Assembly: GCF_002837275.1 (NCBI RefSeq)
Contig: NZ_NXIF01000017.1
Span: 1 to 56,932, forward strand
Reading direction: 5' to 3'
Source: Malaciobacter halophilus
GTDB lineage: Bacteria; Campylobacterota; Campylobacteria; Campylobacterales; Arcobacteraceae
Length of the DNA: 56,932 nt
Shown: positions 12,135 to 35,559 of the stretch, in pieces
How positions within the stretch are numbered: the first letter of the stretch is position 1
Layout of the letters: every line of letters begins with the position of its first letter
Notes under the pieces: generated by a model
The model's input: only the letters and a program-made list of their open reading frames with translations
What the model was told of the DNA's origin: nothing
Databases searched by the model: none
Program-made: the position numbers and the translations under genes

Positions 12135-12653
12135 GTGTTCAATAATATATTTGATGAAAATAAAATGCAAGAGTTACAAATTTTATTAAGAGAAAATAAA
12201 AAAACAGTAACTTGTGCAGAGAGTTGTACCGGTGGATTATTAGCTTCTATGATTACAGAACTTTCTGGTTCCTCTGATATATTTAATGGTTCAATTGTTT
12301 CTTATTCCAATGAAATTAAAAATAAAAAACTAAATGTAAAAATAAAGAATTTAGAAGAATTTGGTGCAGTTAGTACACAAGTAGTTGAAGATATGATTGA
12401 TGGTTCAATACAGATGTTTGATGCTGATTTTGCCCTTGCTACAAGTGGTATTGCTGGACCAACAGGAGCAACAAAAAATAAGCCAGTAGGTACGGTTGTA
12501 ATAGGTGTAGGAGCCAAAAATGGCGATAAAATCGTTGATGTATATCACTTTGATGGTAACCGAAAAGAAGTTCAGATACAAGCTGCAAAAACAACTTTTA
12601 AAATTTTTTTAAAATTTTTTCAAAAAACCCTTGACAAACAAAAAATTTTTTAA
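12135..12653 (+). CDS. CinA C-terminal family nicotinamide-nucleotide amidase
   Basis: 172-aa stand-alone CinA C-terminal domain (PncC/YgaD type), which hydrolyses nicotinamide mononucleotide to nicotinate mononucleotide in NAD recycling. Seen: TCAESCTGGLLASMITELSGSS near residues 24-45 and ALATSGIAGPTGATKNKPVGTV. No N-terminal molybdopterin-like domain is present, so it is the short form. The start is GTG at 12135, supported by AAAGGA at 12123-12128. The last codons contain the promoter of the tRNA array that follows. Confidence 0.85.
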   Translation: MFNNIFDENKMQELQILLRENKKTVTCAESCTGGLLASMITELSGSSDIFNGSIVSYSNEIKNKKLNVKIKNLEEFGAVSTQVVEDMIDGSIQMFDADFALATSGIAGPTGATKNKPVGTVVIGVGAKNGDKIVDVYHFDGNRKEVQIQAAKTTFKIFLKFFQKTLDKQKIF

Positions 12654-12659
12654 TATAAT
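12631..12659 (+). promoter_or_regulatory. Consensus sigma70 promoter of the tRNA array
   Basis: TTGACA at 12631-12636, exactly 17 bp, then TATAAT at 12654-12659. The -35 and most of the spacer lie inside the last codons of the upstream amidase gene, whose TAA (12651-12653) abuts the -10. Transcription would start about 15 nt before tRNA-Lys. Confidence 0.85.
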
Positions 12660-12681
12660 TCCACTCCATTTTAAGAAAGAC

Positions 12682-12757
12682 GACCCGTTAGCTCAGCTGG
12701 TAGAGCATCTCCCTTTTAAGGAGGTGGCCGAAGGTTCGAATCCTTCACGGGTCACCA
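12682..12757 (+). tRNA. tRNA-Lys (anticodon TTT)
   Basis: 76-nt cloverleaf with acceptor arms GACCCGT / ACGGGTC, D-arm GCTCAGCTGGTAGAGC, anticodon loop CTTTTAA and T-arm GGTTCGAATCC, with CCA encoded. First gene of a four-tRNA array. Confidence 0.97.
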
Positions 12758-12778
12758 CTTAAAATGTTTATCAAATTT

Positions 12779-12853
12779 GGCCCCTTCATCTAGCGGTTAG
12801 GATTCATGGTTTTCATCCATGCCACAGGAGTTCGAGTCTCCTAGGGGTCACCA
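12779..12853 (+). tRNA. tRNA-Glu (anticodon TTC)
   Basis: 75-nt cloverleaf. Acceptor GGCCCCT / AGGGGTC (one G-U pair), anticodon loop TTTTCAT, T-arm with GTTCGAGTC, CCA encoded. Second gene of the array. Confidence 0.96.
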
Positions 12854-12871
12854 AATCATAATAATCTTTTC

Positions 12872-12947
12872 GGTCGATTAGCTCAGTTGGTAGAGCGCTA
12901 CCCTTACAAGGTAGATGCCAGTGGTTCGAGTCCACTATCGACCACCA
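12872..12947 (+). tRNA. tRNA-Val (anticodon TAC)
   Basis: 76-nt cloverleaf. Acceptor GGTCGAT / ATCGACC, D-arm GCTCAGTTGGTAGAGC, anticodon loop CTTACAA, T-arm GGTTCGAGTCC, CCA encoded. Third gene of the array. Confidence 0.97.
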
Positions 12948-12960
12948 CTTTTTTATTGTT

Positions 12961-13038
12961 GCGGCTGTAGTTTAGTTTGGTTAGAATGCCTGCCTGTCAC
13001 GCAGGAGGTCGCGAGTTCGAGTCTCGTCAGCCGCGCCA
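12961..13038 (+). tRNA. tRNA-Asp (anticodon GTC)
   Basis: 78-nt cloverleaf. Acceptor GCGGCTG / CAGCCGC, discriminator G, anticodon loop CTGTCAC in a CCTGC/GCAGG stem, T-arm with GTTCGAGTC, CCA encoded. Last gene of the array. I see no clear terminator before the histidine kinase gene 111 bp downstream. Confidence 0.97.
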
Positions 13039-32616: not shown

Positions 32617-33123
32617 ATGCAAAAAAAAATAAATGATGATTTAACACTGTATTTTACCAATAACTTTCCATTTGTTTCAAAGTTTAAATCGGACAAAAAA
32701 TATCATGTAACAATAGGAATTGGGGGAAATATAGGTAATGTAAAAAAAAGATTTGATAAGTTATTGTTATATTTAAAAGCTGATACTAGATTTGATATAA
32801 TTATGACAAGTCCTTTACTTTTAAATCCACCATTTGGTTTTTTGGAACAAAATAACTTTTTAAATGGTATAATTGTTCTTAAAACTAATCTAGCAGCTAA
32901 TGAATTTTTAAAAAATATGCAAAGGTTAGAGAAAAGATTGGGAAGAAAGCGATCCTTTCAAGATGCGCCTAGAACCTTGGATATTGATATTATTTTTTTT
33001 GATAACAAAACAATTAATACAAAAAAACTTATTGTTCCTCACAAAGACTGGGCAAACAGAGAATCAGTGATTATTCCTTTAAAATATATGAAAATAAATA
33101 GAGCAACTTGTTGTTCACTTTAG
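32617..33123 (+). CDS. folK: HPPK, dihydropteridine pyrophosphokinase
   Basis: 168-aa 2-amino-4-hydroxy-6-hydroxymethyldihydropteridine diphosphokinase of folate synthesis. Seen: IGIGGNIGNVKKRF (like the LGSNxG motif), PLLLNPPFG and the signature KRSFQDAPRTLDIDIIFF with the Mg-binding Asp pair. The ribosome site AGGAG (32609-32613) supports ATG at 32617. The C-terminal tail after IIPLKYMK is unusual (KINRATCCSL), and a decayed second copy of the 3' third of this gene lies 1.3 kb downstream. Confidence 0.9.
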   Translation: MQKKINDDLTLYFTNNFPFVSKFKSDKKYHVTIGIGGNIGNVKKRFDKLLLYLKADTRFDIIMTSPLLLNPPFGFLEQNNFLNGIIVLKTNLAANEFLKNMQRLEKRLGRKRSFQDAPRTLDIDIIFFDNKTINTKKLIVPHKDWANRESVIIPLKYMKINRATCCSL

Positions 33124-33153
33124 AATTTAGTTCTAAAAAATTATTAAATACAT

Positions 33154-33177
33154 GTTTCTTTTAAAAGAAACTTTTTT
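33154..33177 (+). terminator. Terminator-like hairpin directly before mnmA copy 1
   Basis: GTTTCTTTT (33154-33162) pairs with AAAAGAAAC (33163-33171), followed by six T. The T-run abuts the AAGG ribosome site (33178-33181) of mnmA copy 1, so read-through or a separate event is needed to express that gene from the folK side. Confidence 0.6.
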
Positions 33178-33187
33178 AAGGAAAAAA

Positions 33188-34285
33188 ATGAAAAAAAAAG
33201 TAGTTGTAGGAATGTCTGGTGGTGTTGATTCATCAGTTACAGCTTTACTGTTAAAAAAGCAAGGATATGAAGTACAAGGCCTATTTATGCGTAATTGGGA
33301 GTATGGAATCAAAGGTAGCCAATGCCCTAATCGTATAGAGTTTGAAGATGCTAAAAAAGTAGGAGAACTAATAGGTATTGAAGTTAAGGGGAAAGATTTT
33401 GTTCAAGAGTATAAAACTAAAGTATTTGATGTATTCTTAGAAGGCTTAAAAAAAGGTCTTACCCCAAATCCAGATATATTATGTAACCGTGAGATTAAGT
33501 TTAATGTATTTTTAAATGAAGCAAAAAAAATGGGTGCAGATTTTATAGCAACTGGACACTATGCTAAAATAGCTAAATATAAAGACCACTTTGTTCTTGA
33601 TACTCCAAAGGACAACTCTAAAGACCAAAGCTATTTCTTACATGCACTTTCAAGTGAACAGTTATCACAAGCTATGTTTCCCCTTGCTGATTTAACAAAA
33701 TCAGAAGTTAGAGAAATAGCAAAAGAGCATAACTTACCAGTTAGTAATAAAAAAGATAGTACAGGTATTTGTTTTATTGGAAATCAAAGATTCGATGAGT
33801 TTATTACACAACATTTAAAAGCAATTCCTGGTGATATTATTGATGAAAATGGGAATATAATAGGTAAGCATAAGGGTCTTATTTGTTATACATTAGGACA
33901 AAGAAAAGGTATTGGTATTGGAGGTATTAAACAAACTCAATTAGATAACAATATTCATAAACCTTGGTATGTAGCTAAAAAAGATATAAGAAATAATACT
34001 TTAACAATCGTACAAGATACAAATCATCCTTTACTTATGAGTAAAAATGTCGAAGCTAGTCATATGCATTGGGTACTTGAAGTTGCTCCAAAAGTTGGAG
34101 ATAAACTTATGGCACAAATTCGTTATCGTCAAAAAAAGCAAGCTTGCACAGTAACACAAGTTGATAATGATAAAGTAGTTGTTGAATTTGATAAACCTCA
34201 AAGAGCTGTAACTTTAGGACAAAGTCTTGTTTTATATGATGGTAATTACTGCTTAGGTGGTGGATTTATAAGCAATTACAATTAA
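33188..34285 (+). CDS. mnmA: tRNA 2-thiouridylase MnmA, copy 1 (gammaproteobacterial-like)
   Basis: 365-aa enzyme that thiolates U34 of tRNA-Lys, -Glu and -Gln. PP-loop SGGVDSS (10-16), catalytic Cys99 in NPDILCNREIKF and Cys195 in STGICFIG. Its motifs (LFMRNWE, GLICYTLGQRKGIGIGG, LHWV-like MHWV, CLGGG) closely follow the E. coli-type enzyme and are unlike copy 2. ATG at 33188 is chosen for the AAGG site; an in-frame ATG at 33152 would translate the terminator-like hairpin. Probably acquired, given the foreign motif set and the folK scar after it (inference). Confidence 0.9.
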   Translation: MKKKVVVGMSGGVDSSVTALLLKKQGYEVQGLFMRNWEYGIKGSQCPNRIEFEDAKKVGELIGIEVKGKDFVQEYKTKVFDVFLEGLKKGLTPNPDILCNREIKFNVFLNEAKKMGADFIATGHYAKIAKYKDHFVLDTPKDNSKDQSYFLHALSSEQLSQAMFPLADLTKSEVREIAKEHNLPVSNKKDSTGICFIGNQRFDEFITQHLKAIPGDIIDENGNIIGKHKGLICYTLGQRKGIGIGGIKQTQLDNNIHKPWYVAKKDIRNNTLTIVQDTNHPLLMSKNVEASHMHWVLEVAPKVGDKLMAQIRYRQKKQACTVTQVDNDKVVVEFDKPQRAVTLGQSLVLYDGNYCLGGGFISNYN

Positions 34286-34361
34286 TATGCTATAATCTTA
34301 GTTTTAAAATCTTTGCAAGATTAATTTTATTAAATTCATGTAAAGATTAAAACTTATGTAT
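34283..34361 (+). promoter_or_regulatory. Extended -10 promoter and hairpin before mnmA copy 2
   Basis: TGCTATAAT (TG at 34288, TATAAT 34291-34296) is an extended -10 starting just after the mnmA copy 1 stop. The following leader can form a long imperfect hairpin (arms about 34299-34315 and 34340-34355). Confidence 0.45.
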
Positions 34362-34490
34362 GGAAGAAAGCTATCCTTTCAAGATACGCCTAAACCAAAA
34401 TTAAATATCTCAATTAATTATGAATAAAAGAGGTTTTAACCCTTATAAAATTAGGCACCTAAGAATCAGTGATTATTCCTTTATTAAATT
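34362..34490 (+). pseudogene. Decayed fragment of the folK 3' end
   Basis: The stretch from 34362 reads GGAAGAAAGC then ATCCTTTCAAGAT, matching folK at 32941 onward (about 27 of the first 30 bases), and 34462-34483 is identical over 22 bases to folK 33060-33081. Between these anchors the fragment is 19 bases shorter than folK (101 against 120), which shifts the frame, and the middle part has drifted. It is thus a broken duplicate of the last third of folK lying between the two mnmA genes. Confidence 0.8.
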
Positions 34491-34524
34491 ATAGTTTCAA
34501 AATAGAAGTTTTTAAAGGTAAAAT

Positions 34525-35559
34525 ATGAAAAAAGTTATGGTTGGAATGAGTGGTGGAATTGATTCATCAGTTACAGCTTATATGTTAAAAAAACAGGGCT
34601 ATGAAGTAGAAGGTGTTTATCTCAAACTTCACAATAGAACAGATGGATACCATGAATCAAATATCAAACATATACAAAATGTTACAAATTTTCTTGGTAT
34701 AAAATACCATGTTTTAGATATTGCTGATGATTTTACAAAAGAAGTATATGATTATTTTGTTAACTCTTATTTAGAAGGAACTACACCTAATCCATGTGTT
34801 AAGTGCAATAGACAAATAAAATTTGGAAAAATGTTAGAGTTTGCTAAAGAGCATAAAGCTTCATACTTAGCAACAGGTCACTATGCAAAAACTGATGGTG
34901 AGTTTATTTATGAAGCAGAAGATAAATCAAAAGACCAAAGCTATTTTCTTTCACAAGTTGAAAAAGAAGCCTTACCATATATGATGTTTCCTATGAGTAA
35001 TTATAAAAAAGAAGATATTGTTAAACTTGGTGAGAAATTAGATAATGTATATAAAAAAATTGCCCAAAAAAATGAATCTCAAGAGATTTGTTTTGTTGAT
35101 ACAGTTTACACTGATGTTGTAAAAAGACATGCAAATATTGATATACCTGGAAAAGTACTTGATGAGAAAGGAAATGAAATAGGTACACATAAAGGTTATA
35201 TGCACTATACAATTGGTAAAAGAAGAGGATTTAGAGTTCATGGTGCACAAGAACCACACTTTGTAAAATCTTTAAATCCAAAAAATAATACTATTGTTGT
35301 TGGGAAAAAAGAGTCTTTAGAAGTAAATAGTGTAGAAGCAAATAATTTAAATATGTATATTGATACTACTAATTTTAAGTGCGGTGTAAAATTAAGATAT
35401 CGAAGTGTACTACTTCCTTGTGAAGTAACTATTAAAAATGATATTGCACATATCAAACTTGATAAATCTGCATTTGGTGTTGCAGCTGGTCAGCTAGCAG
35501 TATTTTATCTGGATGAAAAAGTCATAGGAAGTGGTTGGATTACTAAAACTTCTAAATAA
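34525..35559 (+). CDS. mnmA: tRNA 2-thiouridylase MnmA, copy 2 (Campylobacterota type)
   Basis: 344-aa MnmA with PP-loop SGGIDSS (about 9-15), catalytic Cys94 in CVKCNRQIKF and Cys189 in SQEICFVD. It is shorter than copy 1 and lacks the RNWE and GIGIGG features; the overall form matches the MnmA usual in Campylobacterota, so this is likely the ancestral gene. Both copies keep all catalytic residues. The ribosome site AAAGG (34514-34518) fits the ATG at 34525. Only the folK remnant separates it from copy 1. Confidence 0.9.
   Translation: MKKVMVGMSGGIDSSVTAYMLKKQGYEVEGVYLKLHNRTDGYHESNIKHIQNVTNFLGIKYHVLDIADDFTKEVYDYFVNSYLEGTTPNPCVKCNRQIKFGKMLEFAKEHKASYLATGHYAKTDGEFIYEAEDKSKDQSYFLSQVEKEALPYMMFPMSNYKKEDIVKLGEKLDNVYKKIAQKNESQEICFVDTVYTDVVKRHANIDIPGKVLDEKGNEIGTHKGYMHYTIGKRRGFRVHGAQEPHFVKSLNPKNNTIVVGKKESLEVNSVEANNLNMYIDTTNFKCGVKLRYRSVLLPCEVTIKNDIAHIKLDKSAFGVAAGQLAVFYLDEKVIGSGWITKTSK

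Follow-up and report, generated by a model that had tools for sequence, protein, structure and literature searches.

A conserved nucleic-acid element in the 3' end of folK and a putative leader of the tandem mnmA genes of Arcobacteraceae

MnmA acts on U34 of tRNA-Glu, tRNA-Lys and tRNA-Gln, whose anticodons are UUC, UUU and UUG. The E. coli thrS operator mimics a tRNA anticodon arm and is bound by its own enzyme. The element that we describe here resembles this operator in that one of its two conserved blocks (block 1) can be drawn as an anticodon arm, MnmA being an enzyme that modifies a tRNA with a UUC anticodon. It differs in that the stem of block 1 is not thermodynamically favoured and has thin covariation. 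With translational riboswitches and protein-bound leaders it has in common a promoter-like site, a leader of predicted structure, a highly conserved core and a complement to the Shine-Dalgarno sequence, all before the gene. Unlike these, it has no match in Rfam, and one of its copies lies inside the coding end of another gene.

The D-type and C-type classes of MnmA of Shigi are reviewed in PMC11784392, where the D-type is placed mainly in Proteobacteria and a C-type variant in Campylobacter and Helicobacter. At our locus one gene (mnmA1) encodes a DxxC protein as in the E. coli-like D-type and the other (mnmA2) a CxxC protein as in the Campylobacter/Helicobacter C-type; the difference from the reviewed classes is that here both types occur in tandem within one genome and that either may be lost. 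In the literature that we searched, neither an mnmA leader nor the Arcobacter tandem had been described.

The locus, the two MnmA types and the folK-derived remnant

The window, by which we mean the whole stretch of 56,932 nucleotides that was analysed, makes up contig 33 of a genome of 2.75 Mb whose closest named relatives are Arcobacter, Aliarcobacter and Poseidonibacter. Its gene order is folK, mnmA1, a gap of 239 bp, mnmA2 and prs.

32617..33123, + strand: folK (HPPK), intact, with the first copy of the element in its 3' part (TIGR01498, 118 bits; PF01288, 90 bits)
33188..34285, + strand: mnmA1, D-type MnmA (NPDILC, TGICFIG), the inserted gene (NF001138, 440 bits; tree and motif)
34525..35559, + strand: mnmA2, C-type MnmA (NPCVKC), the native gene (NF001138, 369 bits; in the tree with Campylobacterota MnmA)

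The open reading frame of mnmA1 spans 33152-34285, and 33188 is the likelier start. An earlier reading, made from the letters of the window without database searches (the sequence-only reading), had called the two MnmA copies unlike in type, and both motifs and phylogeny bear this out. MnmA1 has the DxxC motif NPDILC, the catalytic-cysteine motif TGICFIG and an NF001138 score of 440 bits against a cut-off of 284; MnmA2 has the CxxC motif NPCVKC together with QEICFVD and scores 369 bits. In a tree of 60 proteins, a comparison that the same reading had proposed, the copies do not group together and are separated by a branch with full support, MnmA1 with gammaproteobacterial and Bacillota MnmA (support 100/98) and MnmA2 with other Campylobacterota MnmA (100/99). 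Among a sample of 249 genomes of the phylum, strong matches to mnmA1 (E <= 1e-70) occur only in this family, the Arcobacteraceae. More distant D-type relatives are seen in a genome of another family (G043, locus L025; 63%) and on a short contig of 3.5 kb (G028 contig 151, locus L027; 48-49%), which may be contamination or a separate transfer. One further genome (G016) has two mnmA2-like genes on different contigs (L042 and L043), 63% and 66% identical to mnmA2 of the window, and no folK was found beside either.

The gap between the two mnmA genes had been said to hold a frame-shifted remnant of the folK 3' end. The remnant is real and far above chance: local alignment by software gives folK and the gap a score of 58, while 1000 dinucleotide shuffles averaged 25 and never exceeded 41. 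The frame is lost, and stops are present. The 22 identical bases that had been noted agree at 22 of 22 positions (33060-33081 and 34462-34483) and occur nowhere else within the window. A second match, put at about 27 of 30 near 34362, proved slightly better, with 29 of 31 bases shared between 32941-32971 and 34362-34392; the matched sequence is GGAAGAAAGC[G/T]ATCCTTTCAAGAT[G/A]CGCCTA. As to extent, the identification with the folK end holds and the start given for it does not: related remnants begin further upstream, between folK codons 49 and about 98, and the promoter-like site (folK codons 83-86) is retained in remnants too.

For comparison we used 104 genomes of the family; these are related, and the counts given here are therefore not independent. 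A remnant lies between both mnmA genes in 19 of them, from six genera. In the window it contains the following features.

34288..34296, + strand: promoter-like site TGCTATAAT that opens the remnant (TGnTATAAT in 17/19 remnants)
34300..34354, + strand: hairpin P0 (RNAfold -13.2 kcal/mol; similar hairpins in most other remnants)
34362..34396, + strand: block 1 (mean identity to the genome's own folK 92%, 19 genomes)
34451..34483, + strand: block 2 (mean identity to the genome's own folK 91%, 19 genomes)
34476..34518, + strand: predicted pairing of TTCCTTTA (34476-34483) with the complementary Shine-Dalgarno sequence TAAAGG of mnmA2 (34513-34518)

Constraint on the element in remnants and in intact folK

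According to the sequence-only reading the remnant had been left to decay. Our comparisons do not support this: both blocks are kept in 19/19 remnants, and both are constrained at synonymous sites in intact folK. Relative to the folK of the same genome, block 1 (GGAAGAAAGCGATCCTTTCAAGATGCGCCTAGAACC) is still 92% identical and block 2 (TGGGCAAATAGAGAATCAGTGATTATTCCTTTA) 91%, and the stretches between the blocks and upstream of them only 60-63%. A value of 60-63% is about the level that gapped alignment of A+T-rich DNA reaches anyway. The even loss of similarity expected of a decaying pseudogene is thus not seen, the blocks standing at 91-92% against about 60% elsewhere.

Since the n of TGnTATAAT is free while the rest of the motif is kept, the site is promoter-like, unlike a codon. 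The three bases that follow it are 71-88% G+C on average (CTT in the window's own remnant). After the site most remnants have a hairpin, P0, whose arms change together (AATCTTTACA/TGTAAAGATT, AATCTCTACA/TGTAGAGATT, AATCTCTTC/GAAGAGATT); it is absent or replaced in G005, G027, G076 and G087. Judged by these patterns, the remnant is better read as a retained, putative promoter and leader element.

The same parts are found, in the same order, within the intact gene.

32865..32873, + strand: extended -10-like site TGGTATAAT, folK codons 83-86, putative promoter (near-invariant in 70 folK)
32885..32929, + strand: hairpin P0 inside folK, arms 32885-32891 and 32923-32929 (pairing across 67 distinct folK)
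32941..32976, + strand: block 1, folK codons 109-120, GGAAGAAAGCGATCCTTTCAAGATGCGCCTAGAACC (conserved rare codons, 2.46 bits/codon)
33049..33081, + strand: block 2, TGGGCAAACAGAGAATCAGTGATTATTCCTTTA (highest synonymous-identity windows of folK)

Codons 109-120 read GGA AGA AAG CGR TCC TTT CAA GAT GCG CCT AGA ACC in 70 genes almost without exception. Measured against the codon usage of four neighbouring genes, they carry 2.46 bits/codon; the folK median is 0.47, and the top windows of mnmA1 and mnmA2 reach 0.74 and 0.59. The codon TCC is present in 69/70 folK although it makes up 1.3% of the Ser codons in the neighbouring genes; GCG (2.9%), CGA/CGG, AAG and ACC are further rare codons conserved in block 1. 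Block 2 (codons 148-156) and the -10-like site (codons 83-86) are likewise fixed, with GTG at V151 in 61/70 genes although it accounts for 3.6% of Val codons, and ATA at I85 in 70/70. Codons 121-146, in between, vary normally at synonymous sites. We rejected a recent horizontal sweep as the source of the conservation, because these codons vary at synonymous sites and the blocks do not, and also rare-codon translational pausing in folK as a sufficient cause, because untranslated remnants keep the blocks. With up to two mismatches allowed, a 24-mer of block 1 is found in 71/104 family genomes, its reversed control in 0. For P0 in folK, 74% of cells are paired across the 67 distinct genes, whereas slid registers do not exceed 47%, and one pair shows a UA/AU exchange. 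The margin is smaller when the arms are permuted without change of their composition, which yields up to 73% against the observed 74%.

In our view this clearly exemplifies purifying selection on a nucleic-acid element in a protein-coding end, its blocks being hidden also in the intact folK of about 70 related species. Nature has supplied the control, as the gene-free copies have lost the protein and kept the element. The case also warns that a "pseudogene scar" at a gene junction can be retained regulatory sequence. A separate hairpin resembling AACAAC-TNG-GTTGTT (window 33099-33122) is found in many genomes directly behind the folK stop, and G036 and G111 have it in their long remnants too (L011 and L155); it is possibly a terminator or a further part of the leader.

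A covariance model built from 18 remnant gaps, the window's own included, scores 134 bits on the folK copy of the window (32937-33084) and 109 bits on the remnant copy (34358-34486). Across the family its matches of 90-143 bits number two per genome with a remnant and one per element-bearing genome without. Elsewhere in the family genomes or in the phylum sample no match exceeds 57 bits, which leaves a gap between 90 and 57 bits, and the blocks were not found outside the family; we take weak matches of 37-57 bits there as folK coding similarity. The element is hence confined to the folK-mnmA locus and always lies upstream of an mnmA gene, as a cis-acting leader should, and in the loci that we read each mnmA is preceded either by the element or by an adjoining upstream mnmA. 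Rfam gave no relevant match up to E 5 for the window region or up to E 3 for six relatives, and none at a gathering score. With its about 90 copies the element is a candidate for a new family of leader RNAs, whose putative target, a tRNA 2-thiouridine enzyme, is amenable to testing.

Origin and distribution of the tandem

Most of the element-bearing genomes have the order folK-mnmA1-mnmA2, so the insertion is not peculiar to the genome of the window. Comparison of folK-mnmA junctions in relatives that lack mnmA1, suggested by the sequence-only reading, shows folK directly before mnmA2; 14 of the element-bearing genomes are of this kind. Conversely, mnmA1 is alone, with mnmA2 lost or in pieces, in G019, G021, G115, G119 and, by family search, G123. 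Several lineages with mnmA1 have a lost or broken mnmA2, and others have mnmA2 and no mnmA1, so that one enzyme of either type seems to be enough. The family offers a natural gene-replacement series, from C-type only through both to D-type only, for asking if the two mechanistic classes of MnmA are interchangeable. In G015 an insert of about 2.6 kb (L054, 5057-7641) splits mnmA2 after residue 221, and the upstream mnmA1 is intact; the insert has two open reading frames on the opposite strand (512 and 248 aa) that by eye resemble an IstA/IstB pair of the IS21 type.

The origin of the remnant is best seen in G060, G076 and G087, which belong to another genus than the window. In these and other genomes the remnant ends with PLKRM-stop right before mnmA2, like folK of genomes without mnmA1. 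In the three it is closer to the folK end of congeners lacking mnmA1 than to the folK of its own genome (for example 303 bits against 220; in G060 about 300 against 220), which makes it the native 3' end of folK, still adjoining the native mnmA2, as had been proposed. The folK of G060 itself has a 3' part nearest to another genus and a 5' part nearest to its own. Judged by these matches, the newcomers, at least in G060, G076 and G087, are the 3' part of folK and mnmA1; for the window's own genus we infer the same history of insertion from the shared layout. The MnmA types, the junctions without mnmA1 and the remnant matches together support the proposal of a foreign mnmA inserted at the folK end with partial duplication of folK. 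Of what had been offered as the simplest reading of the scar, foreign insertion and native origin stand, while decay fails on the blocks kept in the 19 remnants.

The nearest neighbour of mnmA1 lies outside the genus in 21% of cases, compared with 2-6% for pepP, the 5' part of folK and mnmA2, which points to exchange of mnmA1 between genera. Remnants differ in length, and since many genomes with both mnmA genes have lost theirs, it is dispensable once mnmA2 stands directly behind mnmA1. In such genomes mnmA2 usually starts about 10-100 bases from mnmA1 and can share its transcript. Some Arcobacteraceae carry mnmA2 without the element, among them G001, of the same genus as the window. G001, G008 and G026 have neither the element nor mnmA1 and are nested within the element-bearing group, which suggests that the folK 3' end and mnmA1 were also lost or replaced together.

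A putative cis-acting leader and its alternatives

Taken as a whole, the observations are probably best explained by a conserved nucleic-acid element, a cis-acting mnmA leader RNA that resides in the folK end and survives as a gene-free copy. In the ancestral state folK would have stood directly before the C-type mnmA2, its 3' end doubling as promoter and leader of that gene, in the order TGnTATAAT, hairpin, block 1, block 2 and Shine-Dalgarno sequence. A foreign D-type mnmA would then have entered between the two, bringing a second folK 3' end. Both mnmA genes would now have the element upstream, mnmA1 the copy in intact folK and mnmA2 the gene-free native copy. The start of transcription, the RNA and the regulation of mnmA by it are predictions from sequence. 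If they are correct, the element is part of a transcript and controls the expression of mnmA in cis, probably at translation, where its UUCCUUUA end can cover the Shine-Dalgarno sequence. One may speculate that the GGAA with which block 1 opens could instead pair with UUCC of block 2, thereby freeing the Shine-Dalgarno sequence. In G000 the Shine-Dalgarno sequence has a predicted probability of 0.90 of pairing with the end of block 2. Its predicted pairing as such averages 0.79 over the remnants, while 17 control genes of the window average 0.61 (p = 0.02), a modest excess that lends weak support to its covering by the 3' end of block 2 (UUCCUUUA). In the case of mnmA1 the element is often far from the start codon. 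RNAalifold gives only 8 pairs, and blocks 1 and 2 vary too little for covariation to inform on internal structure.

Other explanations can be considered. If the remnant were an ordinary decaying scar whose blocks survive by chance or recency, its lost frame, stops, partial deletion, unequal length and absence from many genomes would all be accounted for. Such a scar should not keep just two blocks in 19 remnants of six genera with everything else lost, nor would those blocks be constrained at synonymous sites in folK of genomes that have no remnant, and we give it little credence. Gene conversion between folK and remnant, which are about 1.4 kb apart in the same orientation, might keep the blocks alike. 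It is barely credible, as the genome's own folK is the best match of the remnant in just 1/19, a within-genus near-tie, and the blocks are equally conserved in single-copy genomes.

Extreme conservation of the blocks and the average G+C-rich stretch after the -10 site, as upstream of the tRNA-Lys gene of the window, would also suit a trans-acting small RNA with its own promoter, whose place near mnmA is historical. Yet the element never leaves the locus, it has been duplicated so that each mnmA keeps a copy before it, and the remnants read have no clear terminator after block 2; we think this explanation unlikely. The blocks could instead be a DNA site, either for integration or recombination of an mnmA1 cassette or for binding of a protein, given that direct copies flank mnmA1 and that its nearest neighbours are so often outside the genus (21% against 2-6%). 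Against this, the duplicated stretch starts far upstream of block 1 (folK codon 49 to 98, depending on the genome), the blocks are variably spaced, the genes have no recombinase gene between them, and 14 genomes without mnmA1 retain the site. A DNA site is, in our opinion, quite improbable.

Several smaller candidates were tried. We rejected a small protein from block 1 (MEESDPFKxRL...), which has neither start nor frame conserved, with ACG in several remnants and a stop in G035. A 4-bp hairpin in block 2 (AAUC-AGU-GAUU) is broken in several copies, and we make no claim for it. A possible GAAAG/CUUUC hairpin of block 1 has its outer pair broken without compensation in several remnants.

As an extension of the cis-acting leader, we mention a rather doubtful possibility, that the element is an autoregulatory tRNA mimic. 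MnmA would bind or thiolate a UUC loop of block 1 in its own mRNA, and the capacity for 2-thiouridine would feed back on mnmA translation; the operator, written in the folK end and then copied, would place the acquired D-type and the native C-type under shared control. Drawn as GCGAUC[CUUUCAA]GAU-R-CGC, block 1 has a loop of seven bases that places UUC where the anticodon would be. Such a stem is drawable in each of the 67 distinct folK genes, with 99% of cells paired; its thermodynamic probability is low and its covariation thin. The block 1 loop CUUUCAA compares with UUUUCAU in the tRNA-Glu and CUUUUAA in the tRNA-Lys of the window. The window has a tRNA cluster at 12600-13038, comprising tRNA-Lys(TTT), tRNA-Glu(TTC), tRNA-Val and tRNA-Asp, and the sequence TATAATTCCACTCC upstream of it resembles the -10 site and G+C-rich downstream stretch of many mnmA leaders.
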